DNA of 64,000 bases from Luteimonas sp. ANT-B3E (lineage in GTDB: Bacteria > Pseudomonadota > Gammaproteobacteria > Xanthomonadales > Xanthomonadaceae). The notes under the pieces are model-generated. The model was not told the origin of the DNA and did no database searches. It saw only the letters and a list, made by a program, of their open reading frames with translations. Made by a program: the position numbers and the translations under genes. Below, piece by piece: positions 48,005-54,450 of this stretch. The number at the start of each line of letters is the position of its first letter. Within the stretch, counting starts at the first letter, position 1. The stretch is taken from the NCBI GenBank assembly GCA_001683895.1, contig LXQJ01000050.1, positions 19,569 through 83,568 of the forward strand, written 5' to 3'.

Positions 48005-49255
48005 TCATCCTTCCGCGAGCAGCCTCGCCATCGCGTTGCGGAACCGCCCGGCGATCGCGTCGCGGTCGCGGTGGACGCCATCGACCACGACGCGTACACC
48101 ACCGACCTCGACATCGCGCACCAGCGCGCGGTTGCCGGCGAACACCCAGCGATCCGCAACATCGCCCACGGTCGCACCGGCCAACAGCGGCGCGTGTGGA
48201 TCGAGCCACAGAGACCCGCTGTCGTCGAAGCCGGTTGACGCCGCGGCGCTGTCCGCGACCGCGGCCAGCAGGGTCCTGCCGACACTGGGAATCTGTGCCG
48301 AGGCCGCGACATTGCGCCGCTGGGCCAGCAGCCGCTGGCCGTACTCCAGCCAACGCAGCTCCTCCACCGGGGACACCGACACGTGCGAATCCGAGCCGAT
48401 ACCCCAGCGGCCGCCGGCGTCCAGGTACGCGCGCAGCGGGAACAGTCCGTCGCCAAGATTGGCCTCGGTGGTGGGACACAGCGCGACCGTGGCGCTGCTG
48501 CCTGCGACACCGGCGATTTCGCCAGCGTCGAGATGGGTGGCATGCACCAGGGTCCAGCCTGCATCGACATCGGCGTGGTCAAGAAGCCAGCGCACTGGGC
48601 GCGCGCCGCGCAGCGCGACGCACTCCTCGACCTCCGCCAGCTGTTCGGACACGTGCACGTGTACGCGCGTGTCCGCGGGCAGCGCCGACAGCACCGCGCG
48701 CATCGCGTCCGCCGGCACCGCCCGCAGGCTGTGCAGCGCGCAGCCGACGCGCAGCGTCGCGTCCTGGCGGGCGCGCAGCGCGTCCAGCAGCCGCAGGTAG
48801 CCATCGACGTCGTGCGCGAAGCGCCGCTGGCGATCGGCGAGCGCACGGCCGTCGAAGCCACCCGCCATGTACAGCACCGGCAGTAGCGTCAGCCGGATGC
48901 CGGTGTCGCGCGCGGCGGCGACCAGCGCATCCGACATCGCCGTTGGGGTCGCGTAGGGAGCGCCGTCCGGGGCGTGATGCAGGTAATGGAACTCGCAGAC
49001 AGCGGTATAGCCGGCCTCCAGCATCTCGAGATACAGCTGCGTGGCAACCGCGTGCAGCAGGTCCGGGTCGAAGCGCGCGGCGATGCGGTACATGGTCTCG
49101 CGCCAGGTCCAGAACGAGTCCTGGGGACCGCCGCCGCGCTCCGCGAGGCCCGCCATCGCGCGCTGGAACGCGTGCGAGTGCAGGTTGGCGACACCGGGCA
49201 GCCGCCAGCCGCGCGGGTCGGCGACGGCGAGGGGTGGCGTAGTGACAGCGGGCAT
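48005..49255 (-). CDS. hutF: formimidoylglutamate deiminase
   Basis: LPGVANLHSHAFQRAMAGLAERGGGPQDSFWTWRETMYRIAARFDPD; VHVSEQLAEVEEC; GIGSDSHVSVSPVEELRWLEYGQRL. N-terminus shorter than usual. Confidence 0.92.
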   Translation of the reverse strand: MPAVTTPPLAVADPRGWRLPGVANLHSHAFQRAMAGLAERGGGPQDSFWTWRETMYRIAARFDPDLLHAVATQLYLEMLEAGYTAVCEFHYLHHAPDGAPYATPTAMSDALVAAARDTGIRLTLLPVLYMAGGFDGRALADRQRRFAHDVDGYLRLLDALRARQDATLRVGCALHSLRAVPADAMRAVLSALPADTRVHVHVSEQLAEVEECVALRGARPVRWLLDHADVDAGWTLVHATHLDAGEIAGVAGSSATVALCPTTEANLGDGLFPLRAYLDAGGRWGIGSDSHVSVSPVEELRWLEYGQRLLAQRRNVAASAQIPSVGRTLLAAVADSAAASTGFDDSGSLWLDPHAPLLAGATVGDVADRWVFAGNRALVRDVEVGGVRVVVDGVHRDRDAIAGRFRNAMARLLAEG

Positions 49256-49350: not shown

Positions 49351-49587
49351 ATGGCTACCGAACTGTTGGCCCTCGCCGCCGCGGCTCTCGCGGTGCTGGC
49401 GGTACTGGCGATGGCGCGGCGGAAGCTGCGTGGTCCCGGCGCACGCCGTTCGCGGCGCGGCCGTGGCGACGGTGCGACCACGACCGCCACCGGTACCGGG
49501 AACGACCGCCGCGACGACGCACACCACCACTCCGATGCCGCCACGGGAAGCGACGGCAGCGGCGGCGATGGTGGCGGCGGTGACTGA
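49351..49587 (+). CDS. hypothetical small membrane protein with His-containing disordered tail
   Basis: MATELLALAAAALAVLAVLAMARRKLRG TM segment then low-complexity tail; overlaps hutI start by 20 nt. No family recognised. Confidence 0.4.
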   Translation: MATELLALAAAALAVLAVLAMARRKLRGPGARRSRRGRGDGATTTATGTGNDRRDDAHHHSDAATGSDGSGGDGGGGD

Positions 49588-50806
49588 GCGCTGGGACACG
49601 CTGCTGGTCAACGCCCGGCTGGCGACGCTGGACGGCGCGGGCGACGACGGCTTCGGGACCATCGACGATGGCGCTCTGGCCTGGCGCGACGGCACGCTGG
49701 CCTATGTCGGCGCACGAGAGGCGCTCCCAGCTGCGCCCGACGCGCTGGCCGACAGCGTCATCGACGCCGACGGCGACGTGGTCACGCCGGGGCTCATCGA
49801 TTGCCACACCCACGTCGTCTTCGGCGGCAACCGCGCGGCCGAGTTCGCGCAGCGGCTGCAGGGCGCGGAATACGAGGCGATCGCGCGCGCCGGTGGCGGC
49901 ATCGTGTCGACGGTGCGCGCCACCCGCGCCGCCGACGCCGACGCGCTGCTGGCGGCGTCGCTGCCGCGCGCCGCGGCGCTTCGCGCCGACGGCGTCACCA
50001 CTCTGGAGATCAAGTCCGGCTACGGCCTCGACGAGGCCACCGAGCGCCGCATGCTGGAGGTGGCGCGCCGCATCGGCCCCACACTGGGCATCGACGTGCT
50101 CACGAGCTACCTCGCGGCGCACGCGGTACCGCCGGAGTTCGCCACGCGCGGTGACGAATACATCGATGCGGTGGTCGACTGGCTGCCGCGGCTGCACAAG
50201 GACGGGCTGGTCGACGCCGTCGACGGGTTCTGCGAGCGCATCGCCTTCACCACGGATCAGGTACGCCGCGTATTCGACGCCGCCCGCGCGCTGGGCCTGC
50301 CGGTCAAGCTGCACGCCGACCAGCTGAGCGACGGCGGCGGCGCTGCACTGGTCGCTGAGTATCGCGGCCTGTCGGCCGACCACGTCGAGTACACGACGGT
50401 CACCGCAGTACGCGCGATGGCAGCCGCCGGGACGGTCGCGGTGCTGCTGCCCGGCGCATTCCACGTACTGCGCGAGACACAGCTGCCGCCGATCGCCGCC
50501 TTCCGCGCGCACGGCGTGCCGATGGCGGTGGCCACCGACTGCAATCCGGGCACCGCGCCGCTGCTGTCGCTGCGCCAGGCCATGCAGTTGGCGTGCACCC
50601 ACTTCCGGCTGTCGCCGGCGGAATCACTGCGCGGTGCCACCGTGCACGCAGCGCGCGCACTGGGGCTGCGGGACCGCGGGGCGCTGCGGGTCGGGATGCG
50701 GGCCGACGTCGTGCGCTGGCGCGTCCGCGAGCCCGAAGCCCTGTGTTACTGGCTTGGCGGCCAACTGGCGGTCGCGGTGTATGCCGCTGGACGGCAGGTG
50801 GCGTAA
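49568..50806 (+). CDS. hutI: imidazolonepropionase
   Basis: VVTPGLIDCHTHVVFGGNRAAEFAQRLQGAEYEAIARAGGGIVSTVRATR; LEIKSGYGLDEATERRMLEVARRI; VAVLLPGAFHVLRETQLPP; ATDCNPGTAP. Confidence 0.97.
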   Translation: MVAAVTERWDTLLVNARLATLDGAGDDGFGTIDDGALAWRDGTLAYVGAREALPAAPDALADSVIDADGDVVTPGLIDCHTHVVFGGNRAAEFAQRLQGAEYEAIARAGGGIVSTVRATRAADADALLAASLPRAAALRADGVTTLEIKSGYGLDEATERRMLEVARRIGPTLGIDVLTSYLAAHAVPPEFATRGDEYIDAVVDWLPRLHKDGLVDAVDGFCERIAFTTDQVRRVFDAARALGLPVKLHADQLSDGGGAALVAEYRGLSADHVEYTTVTAVRAMAAAGTVAVLLPGAFHVLRETQLPPIAAFRAHGVPMAVATDCNPGTAPLLSLRQAMQLACTHFRLSPAESLRGATVHAARALGLRDRGALRVGMRADVVRWRVREPEALCYWLGGQLAVAVYAAGRQVA

Positions 50807-50888: not shown

Positions 50889-51095
50889 TCAGTCGCCCTT
50901 GGCGACGGTCTTCTTGGCCACGGCCTTCTTCGCCGGTGCCTTGGCGGTGGTGCTGGTCGAAGTCCGGGTCGCGGACTTCTTTGCGACCGGCGCTGTCGGT
51001 GCGCCAGAGGCCTTGGCGGTCGCCTGCGAACGGCTGTTGCCGTAGCTGGAGATGCTGCGCTTGCCCTTGGCGGTCTTGCGGTCGCCCTTGCCCAT
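50889..51095 (-). CDS. 30S ribosomal protein THX-like, with Ala/Lys-rich C-terminal extension
   Basis: MGKGDRKTAKGKRSISSYGNSR matches the THX core; tail ATRTSTSTTAKAPAKKAVAKKTVAKGD. Confidence 0.75.
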   Translation of the reverse strand: MGKGDRKTAKGKRSISSYGNSRSQATAKASGAPTAPVAKKSATRTSTSTTAKAPAKKAVAKKTVAKGD

Positions 51096-51168: not shown

Positions 51169-51573
51169 TCAGCGCGGCGGCGAAACCAGTGCGGCGTGCG
51201 TCTGGCGCAGGTTGACGAGGTGCGCGGCGGCCAGCAGGCCACCGCCCAGCGTCATGACCGCAGCGTGCATCCAGGTGTGGTCGTGCAGCGCGGTGAATGA
51301 TCCCAGCCACACCAGCGCCAGGCCCGGCACCAGCAGCGCCCACGCGCGGAAAGCGCGATGGCGCCGGTAGCCCATCGCCAGCGTGGTCAGGCCTAGGACA
51401 GTCGCAAACACGACGAACGCCTGGTCGATGTCGACCCAGCCACCCAGGCCCAGCCCCAGTGTGGGCAGCACTGCAAGCACAAGCGGAAACAGCGCGCAGT
51501 GCACGGCACAGATGAACGACGCGGCAAAGCCGACGCGATCGGCGCGGCGCAAGGCAGGACTGGGGTTGGACAT
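51169..51573 (-). CDS. MerC domain-containing membrane protein
   Basis: RADRVGFAASFICAVHCALFPLVLAVLPTLGLG; four-TM profile with conserved C-x2-HC. Confidence 0.83.
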   Translation of the reverse strand: MSNPSPALRRADRVGFAASFICAVHCALFPLVLAVLPTLGLGLGGWVDIDQAFVVFATVLGLTTLAMGYRRHRAFRAWALLVPGLALVWLGSFTALHDHTWMHAAVMTLGGGLLAAAHLVNLRQTHAALVSPPR

Positions 51574-51599
51574 GGCTTTCGGGGGGTGTTTTTGATTTC

Positions 51600-51617
51600 G
51601 AAACATTATAACATCTC
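51600..51617. promoter_or_regulatory. predicted Zur-box-like operator between merC-like gene and TonB receptor
   Basis: GAAACATTATAACATCTC (reverse strand GAGATGTTATAATGTTTC), an AT-rich near-palindrome resembling GAAATGTTATAnTATAACATTTC Zur sites. Confidence 0.6.
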
Positions 51618-51646
51618 GCAGCTCCCCCCATTCTAGCCCAGAGCCC

Positions 51647-53791
51647 ATGACCCGATCGTCCATCCGCCGCACCCCCCTGTTCCTCGCCCTCGCCTTCGTG
51701 ATGCTGCCGGCCGCCGCTCAGGAGGACCCGCGTCACGATGGCGTGGTCGACCTGTCGCAGGTAATCGTCCGCGCCAACCCGCTGTTGCGCACCGCCGAGG
51801 ACCTGACTCGCCCTGTCGAGGTGCTGGCCGGCGAGCAGCTCGATGCCGCCAAGGCGAACTCGCTCGGCGAGACCGTGTCGCGACTGCCCGGCGTGCAGTC
51901 CTCGTACTTCGGGCCCGGCGTCGGACGGCCGATCATCCGCGGCCTCGATGGCCCGCGCGTGCAGGTACTGAGCGACGGCCTGGCCTCGGGCGACGTGTCC
52001 ACCGTGAGCGTCGACCATGCGGTCACGCTGGAGCCGTTCCTCGCCGAGCAGATCGAGGTGCTCAAGGGCCCGGCGACCCTGCTCTACGGCAGTGGCGCGA
52101 TCGGCGGCGCGGTCAACGTCATCGACGGCCGCATCCCGGAGCGCGTGACCGCGCAGCCGCTGCAGGGTCGCGCGGAACTCCGCGCCGGCAGCGTCAACAA
52201 CGAGCGCACCGGCATGTTCCGCCTCGACGGCACCTCGGCGTCTGGCAACATGGTTTTCCACGCCGACGCGCTGCATCGCGAGACCGGCGACTACGACATC
52301 CCGGGCATGGCGATCGCGCATGGCGACCATGAGGATGAGGACGACGAGGACGGCGAGTCCGGCGTCCTGCGCAACAGCTTCGTGCGCACCGACAGCGGCG
52401 CGCTCGGCGTCTCGTACGTCGGCGACCGCGGCTTCATCGGTGTCGGCGCCAGCCTGTTCAACACCCGCTACGGCATCCCGGCAGGCGCCCACGAAGAGCA
52501 TGGCGACGAGGACCACGAGGAAGAAGATGAGGACGAAGAGCTCGTCAGCATCCGCATGGACCAGCGCCGCAGCGAGGTCCGTGGCGGCCTGGAGGACCTC
52601 GGCGTCTTCCAGTCACTGCGTTTCAAGGTCGCGAAAACCGATTACACGCACACCGAGTTCGAGGGCGACGAGGTCGGCACCGTCTTCGACAACGACTCGC
52701 TTGAGGGCCGCGTCGAGCTGGTGCATCAGGACTGGTCCGGTTGGGACGGCGCCTTTGGCGTGCAGGGCGTGCGCCGTGACTTCAACGCGGTGGGCGACGA
52801 GGCATTTGTCCCGGCGTCTGAAACCCGCGACCTTGGCGTCTTCTACATCGGCGAGCGCGCCTTCGGCGCAGTGAACCTGGAACTCGGCGCCCGCCACGAC
52901 CGCAACAAGATCGATGTCGATCCCGAGGAGGCGATCGGCGGCTCGCGTGATTTCAGCGCCACCAGCCTGTCGGCGGCGGCGCGCTGGAACCTGGGCGAAG
53001 ACTTCCACCTGTCGCTCGGCGTCGACCGTGCGCAGCGCACCCCGGTCGCCGAGGAGCTTTACTCGGAGGGGCTGCACGTGGCCACAAACAGCTTCGAATT
53101 CGGCAACCCCGACCTCGACGTGGAGACCGCCAACCGCGCCGAGATTGGCGCCCATTGGCACCCAGGCCCGCTGCGCGTCAGCGCATCGCTGTACCAGGTG
53201 CGCTTCGACGACTTCATCTACCTTGCCGACACCGGCATCGAGGAGGACGGCTCGCCGGCCCGGGTGTGGAACCAGTCCGACGCGCGCTTCACCGGCGGCG
53301 AGATCGACGTGCAGTGGACGTTCCTTCAGAACGACACCGGTCGCTGGAGCGCGCGTGCTTTTGGCGACATGGTCCGCGGCAAGCTGACCGGCAGCGGTAT
53401 GCGCGAAGTGGCGTTCGCGATCGAAGAGGACGGCGAGGTCGAGGAGTTCATCGGCCAGATCGCCCTCGACGGCAACCTGCCGCGCATTGCGCCGTCGCGA
53501 CTCGGTGCCGAACTCGCCTGGGCGGGTAGCCAGTGGCGCGCGGGCATCGGCGCCATCCGCCATGCGAAGCAGGACGATGTCGCCGCGTTCGAGGAGCAGA
53601 CCGCCGGCTACACGCTGGTCAATGCCAACCTCGCCTGGCACCTAGACACCGCTGGCGGCAATGCGCTGGAGCTGTTTGTCGACGGCACCAATCTGCTCGA
53701 CAAGGAGGCGCGCCCGCACACGTCTTTTCTCAAGAGCGTAGCGCCCCTGCCGGGCCGCGGAGTCTCCGCCGGCATCCGCGTCTTCTTCTAA
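51647..53791 (+). CDS. znuD: TonB-dependent receptor, ZnuD-like (predicted zinc uptake)
   Basis: Plug domain (ETVSRLPGVQSSYFGPGVGRPIIRGLDGPRVQVLSDGLASGDVS...GPATLLYGSGAIGGAVNVIDGRIPE), His/Asp/Glu-rich loops (HGDHEDEDDEDGE; HEEHGDEDHEEEDEDEE), C-terminal GRGVSAGIRVFF. Confidence 0.88.
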   Translation: MTRSSIRRTPLFLALAFVMLPAAAQEDPRHDGVVDLSQVIVRANPLLRTAEDLTRPVEVLAGEQLDAAKANSLGETVSRLPGVQSSYFGPGVGRPIIRGLDGPRVQVLSDGLASGDVSTVSVDHAVTLEPFLAEQIEVLKGPATLLYGSGAIGGAVNVIDGRIPERVTAQPLQGRAELRAGSVNNERTGMFRLDGTSASGNMVFHADALHRETGDYDIPGMAIAHGDHEDEDDEDGESGVLRNSFVRTDSGALGVSYVGDRGFIGVGASLFNTRYGIPAGAHEEHGDEDHEEEDEDEELVSIRMDQRRSEVRGGLEDLGVFQSLRFKVAKTDYTHTEFEGDEVGTVFDNDSLEGRVELVHQDWSGWDGAFGVQGVRRDFNAVGDEAFVPASETRDLGVFYIGERAFGAVNLELGARHDRNKIDVDPEEAIGGSRDFSATSLSAAARWNLGEDFHLSLGVDRAQRTPVAEELYSEGLHVATNSFEFGNPDLDVETANRAEIGAHWHPGPLRVSASLYQVRFDDFIYLADTGIEEDGSPARVWNQSDARFTGGEIDVQWTFLQNDTGRWSARAFGDMVRGKLTGSGMREVAFAIEEDGEVEEFIGQIALDGNLPRIAPSRLGAELAWAGSQWRAGIGAIRHAKQDDVAAFEEQTAGYTLVNANLAWHLDTAGGNALELFVDGTNLLDKEARPHTSFLKSVAPLPGRGVSAGIRVFF

Positions 53792-53863
53792 AAGCACGCA
53801 TCGCTCACCCGCTCCACTGGAATCCAGACCAAGAACCGTCAAACGGTCATCTATGATCCTCGC

Positions 53864-53919
53864 TGCCGCGAAGGTCCGCCGCGCTCCCCGCGTGCCGGAC
53901 CGACGCGGCATCTTTTTTT
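53864..53919 (+). terminator. Rho-independent terminator downstream of znuD-like gene
   Basis: TGCCGCG-aa-GGTCCG...CGGACC-ga-CGCGGCA long stem followed by TCTTTTTTT. Confidence 0.88.
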
Positions 53920-53958
53920 GCCCGCGCTGCAGGCGGCTGCCGTGTTCCCCTCAGCCTC

Positions 53959-54450
53959 TCAGCGCGCGGCGCACGCCGCGCACAGCCCGTGCACTTCCAG
54001 CGTCTGCGCCTGCGGCACGAACCCGAGCGCGCGGGCGCGCGCATCCAGCGCCTTCACCACCGCCTCGTCCTCGAGCTCGACCGCGCTGTGGCAGCTGTCG
54101 CAGATCAGGAACGGCACCGAATGCTGCGCGGTATCCGGGTGGTGACAGGCCACAAAGGCATTGACCGACTGCAGTTTGTGGATGAAGCCGTTGGCCAGCA
54201 GGAAATCCAGCGCACGGTAGACGGTCGGCGGCGCCGCGGCGCCCGGACCCTCGCCGTCGCGCACAAGATCCAGCAGTTCGTAGGCCTTGATCGGCGCACC
54301 GGCGTCGGCGATGAAGCCGAGCACGCGGGCGCGGATCGGCGTCAGCCGCAGCCCGCGCTCGACACAGGCGCGCTCCACCGCTGCAACGAAGCTCGCGCCG
54401 TCGTGGACATGGTGGCGCGGAGCGGTGCAGGCATGGGATGTCTTCGGCAT
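53959..54450 (-). CDS. zur: Fur-family transcriptional repressor, Zur-like
   Basis: RLTPIRARVLGFIADAGAPIKAYELLDLVRD, PPTVYRALDFLLANGFIHKLQSVNAFVAC, FLICDSCHSAVELED, HGLCAACAA. Confidence 0.88.
   Translation of the reverse strand: MPKTSHACTAPRHHVHDGASFVAAVERACVERGLRLTPIRARVLGFIADAGAPIKAYELLDLVRDGEGPGAAAPPTVYRALDFLLANGFIHKLQSVNAFVACHHPDTAQHSVPFLICDSCHSAVELEDEAVVKALDARARALGFVPQAQTLEVHGLCAACAAR

Follow-up and report, generated by a model that had tools for sequence, protein, structure and literature searches.

The locus analyzed here probably serves zinc acquisition under the control of Zur, with a MerC-domain protein moving zinc inward across the inner membrane beside a TonB-dependent receptor. 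It lies in a window of 64 kb (the whole stretch of DNA that was analyzed), taken from a 2.8 Mb genome in 57 contigs that is 89% complete and has Luteimonas and Lysobacter as its close named relatives. The proposal builds on features read from the sequence, namely the identities of the genes, a putative operator, an arrangement conserved among relatives, and the absence of ZnuA from most of the order.

The mechanism that we infer, from binding by Zur to zinc specificity, transport and its inward direction, is as follows. When zinc is plentiful, zinc-loaded Zur would bind an operator shared by two divergent genes and repress both; when zinc is scarce, both would be expressed. Driven by TonB energy, the ZnuD-like receptor would bring zinc, either as such or in a complex, through the outer membrane, and the four-helix CxxHC protein of the inner membrane would take periplasmic zinc and pass it to the cytoplasm. 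Its putative thiol/imidazole zinc site would comprise C22, H25 and C26 of helix 1, probably with H118 and N121 of helix 4. In much of the order, such a protein would replace ZnuABC. We found no paper linking a MerC-domain protein to Zur in the openly readable literature, and novelty is provisional to that extent.

Gene content of the locus

Table 1. Features of the predicted zinc locus and its flanks, in window coordinates
Feature	Positions	Strand	Basis
hutF, histidine degradation	48005-49255	-	
hutI, histidine degradation	49586-50806	+	
THX gene (30S ribosomal protein), next after the MerC-like gene	50892-51095	-	TIGR04560
Gene for the 134-aa MerC-domain protein of CxxHC type, a candidate zinc importer	51172-51573	-	Pfam PF03203
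Zur-box-like operator GATGTTATAATGTTTCG, between the MerC-like and receptor starts	51599-51615	-	Matrix score 29.8 bits
ZnuD-like TonB-dependent receptor, 714 aa, His/Asp/Glu-rich stretches	51647-53791	+	TonB plug and barrel domains
Possible terminator (stem-loop, then T run) past the receptor gene	53892-53911	+	Pattern scan
Zur, zinc-sensing repressor of the Fur family (163 aa), gene convergent with that of the receptor	53962-54450	-	PF01475

An earlier note on this DNA had described a MerC-domain gene divergent from a TonB receptor gene, and this holds: the first product matches PF03203 with 83.8 bits (cut-off 27.6), the second carries the expected domains, and the two starts face apart. The MerC-like gene itself was correctly recognized, but its span had been drawn from an upstream GTG, and the likely start is the ATG at 51573. 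About 75 nt beyond its end comes the THX gene (40.9 bits against a cut-off of 26), and a THX-like gene is found in 78 of 80 named Lysobacterales loci. Since THX follows the MerC-like gene and is conserved there, the transcription unit is probably larger than first reported; co-transcription of the two genes under Zur is possible. The terminator call is weak, as the pattern scan gave 2 hits against 1.9 expected in shuffles, and a scan for sigma-70 promoters found none. The cluster is adjoined by hutF and hutI, which occur in 52 and 58 of the 80 loci, respectively; hut genes go up in zinc-starved Burkholderia cenocepacia (PMC10563805).

A confident AlphaFold model of the MerC-like protein (pLDDT 87) has helices at residues 6-39, 46-72, 76-93 and 100-130. 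The first of these holds C22, H25 and C26, the last H118 and N121. Across 30 CxxHC relatives, C22, H25, C26, P30, G110 and N121 are invariant, and D12, P37, G84 and H118 nearly so. A Foldseek search of the PDB returned no solved relative at E<=0.001.

The receptor has a TonB plug, a beta-barrel and a His/acidic-rich stretch. The latter, at about residues 281-306, bears out the His/Asp/Glu-rich loops of the earlier description, with 17 of 25 residues being H, D or E, compared to 19% overall. Its best PDB relative is the Neisseria ZnuD 4rdr (242.6 bits). We designate it ZnuD-like rather than ZnuD, because it scores 431.6 bits with the NCBIfam ZnuD model (NF038289), whose cut-off is 950. ZnuD imports zinc under the regulation of Zur (PMC10563805); the window receptor is like Neisseria ZnuD in being a TonB receptor with His/acidic loops, but differs from it in this low score and in that its gene diverges from a MerC-domain gene.

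The Fur-family repressor beyond the receptor gene had been recognized as Zur, with its cysteine pairs, and both points stand; its gene, described as following that of the receptor, is convergent with it rather than co-directional. Its family membership is supported by 31.3 bits with the Fur-family domain model (threshold 23.1), and its best PDB relative is 7dh7, annotated as a Fur-family regulator (274 bits), while E. coli Zur, 4mtd, scores 118.6 bits. In an alignment with 4mtd, H91, C102, H110 and E125, together with the pairs C117/C120 and C157/C160, match the H, C, H and E and both Cys pairs that serve as zinc ligands in E. coli Zur. These site residues and the context are the grounds for filing the regulator as Zur, rather than the NCBIfam equivalog NF008646, a model whose name refers to the E. 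coli type (PRK11639), with which it scores 137.7 bits, below the cut-off of 167.

A putative Zur operator in the shared promoter

A Zur-box-like site had been proposed in the promoter shared by the divergent genes, and we find it between the two starts, about 26 nt from that of the MerC-like gene and 31 nt from that of the receptor gene. With a position matrix built from relatives and a threshold of at least 14 bits, it is the only site in the window. The matrix finds a Zur box in 76 of the 80 named Lysobacterales loci; among all 80, a related receptor is present in 73 and Zur within 6 kb in 61. Of 78 such loci, 76 carry the strict motif TGTTATANNNTNNC ahead of the MerC-like gene, and it occurs nowhere else in the 867,887 bases of these 78. 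Judged by these counts, the conserved placement of the box is not chance; a genome-wide count of the short motif, one mismatch being allowed, gave no information beyond its reversed control. The box is also kept at loci that lack a divergent ZnuD-like receptor (L034, L038, L054, L056, L062 and L066). The Caulobacter Zur box GATGTTATATCATAACAAT (PMC4176598) has the half-site GATGTTATA, which is common to the window operator.

Boxes upstream of MerC-like genes recur in other gammaproteobacterial families and in Sphingomonas. In the latter, COG0523 genes flank the CxxHC gene on both sides, accompanied by a Zur-like box and an annotated transcriptional repressor gene, and Catenovulum has a palindromic box at its CxxHC gene. 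Several other CxxHC genes directly adjoin a Zur-family gene, in varied gene orders. Outside the order, a CxxHC gene with a box or directly beside a Zur-family gene is found at L105, L107, L108, L110 and L111, and further at L119-L123, L125, L131 and L135.

Fur boxes and Zur boxes are alike as AT-rich palindromes, which is what a promoter under another Fur-family repressor, one responding to iron, would have in its favor. Such control is nevertheless very improbable, given the linked zur and COG0523 genes and the match between the ATGTTATAnnATAACAT-type motif and the Caulobacter Zur targets. Control by Zur of the MerC-like/receptor promoter is instead strongly supported, as a prediction, by the conservation of the box, its occurrence without a divergent receptor and the adjacency of Zur and COG0523 genes in other families. 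With this conserved putative operator upstream, the MerC-like gene qualifies as a predicted member of the Zur regulon.

Two types of MerC-domain protein

Sampled across the class, PF03203 proteins are of two types, mer and CxxHC, and the window protein belongs to the latter. Mer-type proteins have the motif CAxCFP and a C-terminal Cys pair, have MerA/MerP-type motifs nearby in most cases, and form a single clade on a long branch (support 100/99). A Zur box accompanies 12 of 30 class-level CxxHC genes but is missing from all 12 mer-type genes. Fisher's test gave p=0.036 for the comparison termed 'outside own family', which still contained one own-family locus, L128. The window protein shares with the MerC of mer operons the PF03203 domain, four helices, Cys in helix 1 and a conserved Pro. 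It differs, however, in reading CAVHCALFP in place of CAxCFP, in having no C-terminal Cys, in falling in a separate clade and in its Zur box. Its gene has the receptor, THX, hut and zur genes for neighbors, and the 11-kb stretch around it holds no MerA/MerP motif.

Mercury transport, as the family name has it, can appeal to the PF03203 match, but it is hardly credible for a protein outside the mer clade that is missing the mer-type motif, has no MerA or MerP motif nearby and is predicted to be under a Zur box. The proposal of the earlier note that the MerC-like protein handles zinc rather than mercury thus gains support from the predicted regulation and from the separation of the two types. 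The mer type itself provides a precedent: as cited in PMC5253648, MerC of mer operons imports Hg(II) (Sahlman 1997), and cadmium transport by MerC has been reported (Ohshiro 2020, as cited in PMC10781756), so that import of a soft divalent metal is what the family precedent suggests.

A distant merC homologue in Stenotrophomonas from the cystic-fibrosis lung was found to be under location-specific selection (Chung 2017, PMC5253648). It has C20-x3-C24 in helix 1 and adjoins P47K (COG0523), and its mutations L16P, C24Y and P35L fall in helix 1. This S. maltophilia protein resembles that of the window in coming from the same order and in its helix-1 Cys pair; unlike here, it was interpreted in terms of metal or antibiotic resistance, and the words 'zinc' and 'Zur' are absent from the text.

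Other relatives occur in different settings. On a Tolypothrix plasmid (L249, 6609-7369), a MerC-domain gene overlaps an ArsR/SmtB gene near a heavy-metal P-type ATPase gene, a resistance-like context indicating that role or direction may differ within the family. A MerC-like protein with 32-34% identity is also encoded by 227-kb phages that infect Xanthomonas and Erwinia, as in Xanthomonas phage PhiXhv-12 (L245, 2507-2908). Another subfamily is apparently represented by ORFs of about 250 aa (L146-L152 and similar), which match the MerC domain weakly and lack CxxHC.

Under Zur, the protein might also act on a different divalent metal, take part in redox or thiol chemistry through CxxHC, or serve as a metal-export safety valve during derepression. 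The resistance-like neighbors of the cyanobacterial relative and the resistance proposed for the Stenotrophomonas helix-1 mutations would fit such roles, as would Cys/His chemistry, which is not specific to zinc. The steady linkage to Zur, ZnuD-like receptors and COG0523, however, points to shortage of zinc rather than excess, and we regard these roles as improbable.

Zinc importers in the order and in the source genome

The usual importer is rare among the relatives of this genome: ZnuA (PF01297) is present in 5 of 61 relatives and in 22 of 200 genomes of the order, 175 of which have a MerC domain. Most sampled Lysobacterales (the order of Xanthomonas, Lysobacter and Stenotrophomonas) thus lack ZnuA, so their inner-membrane route for zinc needs explaining. 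Within the order, ZnuA is found in 9 of 25 genomes without MerC versus 13 of 175 with it (p=0.0003), an anticorrelation that comes largely from one family, which contributes most of the MerC-less genomes; across 276 genomes of the class there is none (p=0.29). Five genomes of 1.0-1.3 Mb (G185, G218, G275, G285 and G311) have a CxxHC protein and neither ZnuA nor ZIP; the Zur box is absent from most reduced genomes carrying a CxxHC protein. The earlier reading of Zur-controlled zinc uptake, to which the conserved box and the locus lend support, may thus be extended by the scarcity of ZnuA in the order. Taken with the Zur box and the adjacent receptor, an order mostly without the usual importer makes the MerC-like protein a good candidate zinc importer.

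The source genome has other candidates. It contains two ZIP genes, and its Zur regulon, sampled by pattern only, shows additional boxes next to TonB receptors, to a COG0523-WD40-ZIP cluster and to an ABC-2 cluster. On contig C37 (L100, 12806-18641), genes for COG0523, a WD40 protein, ZIP and a TonB receptor are clustered with a Zur-box-like site; on C46 (L101, 13708-17330), such a site precedes genes for an ABC ATPase and two DUF3526/ABC-2 permeases, an ABC-2 cluster resembling Caulobacter znuGHI. In the accessible part of PMC4176598, the Caulobacter Zur regulon (znuK, znuGHI, zrpW/zrpX) comprises TonB receptors, ABC-2 genes and a COG0523 gene, all with boxed counterparts in the source genome; zrpW differs from the MerC-like gene in encoding a six-TM protein, and that part names no MerC-domain protein for the regulon.

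With ZIP and Zur-boxed ABC-2 genes present, the MerC-like protein is not the sole possible inner-membrane route in this genome. It could be a Zur-controlled accessory that binds zinc on the periplasmic side of the inner membrane, or aids the receptor, ABC-2 or ZIP, with these carrying the flux. The nearly constant adjacency of the ZnuD-like receptor in the order would suit such a role, as would the small size of the protein, for which no solved fold shows a transport mechanism. Box-bearing copies without a divergent ZnuD-like receptor, reduced genomes that retain the CxxHC protein in the absence of ZnuA or ZIP, and the family precedent for ion uptake all speak against it, and we consider an accessory role rather unlikely.

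We favor inward transport of zinc by the MerC-like protein itself. More broadly, and tentatively, CxxHC proteins could be widespread bacterial zinc importers of the inner membrane that have so far gone unrecognized. They would take the place of ZnuABC in Lysobacterales and in certain gammaproteobacteria with reduced genomes, and Zur would control them in most lineages; we find this generalization plausible but stop short of calling it likely. On this reading, proteins now annotated for mercury resistance would offer a testable candidate for zinc import, and many 'MerC' annotations would be corrected. The selection on merC in Stenotrophomonas (PMC5253648) could then be reread as bearing on zinc acquisition.
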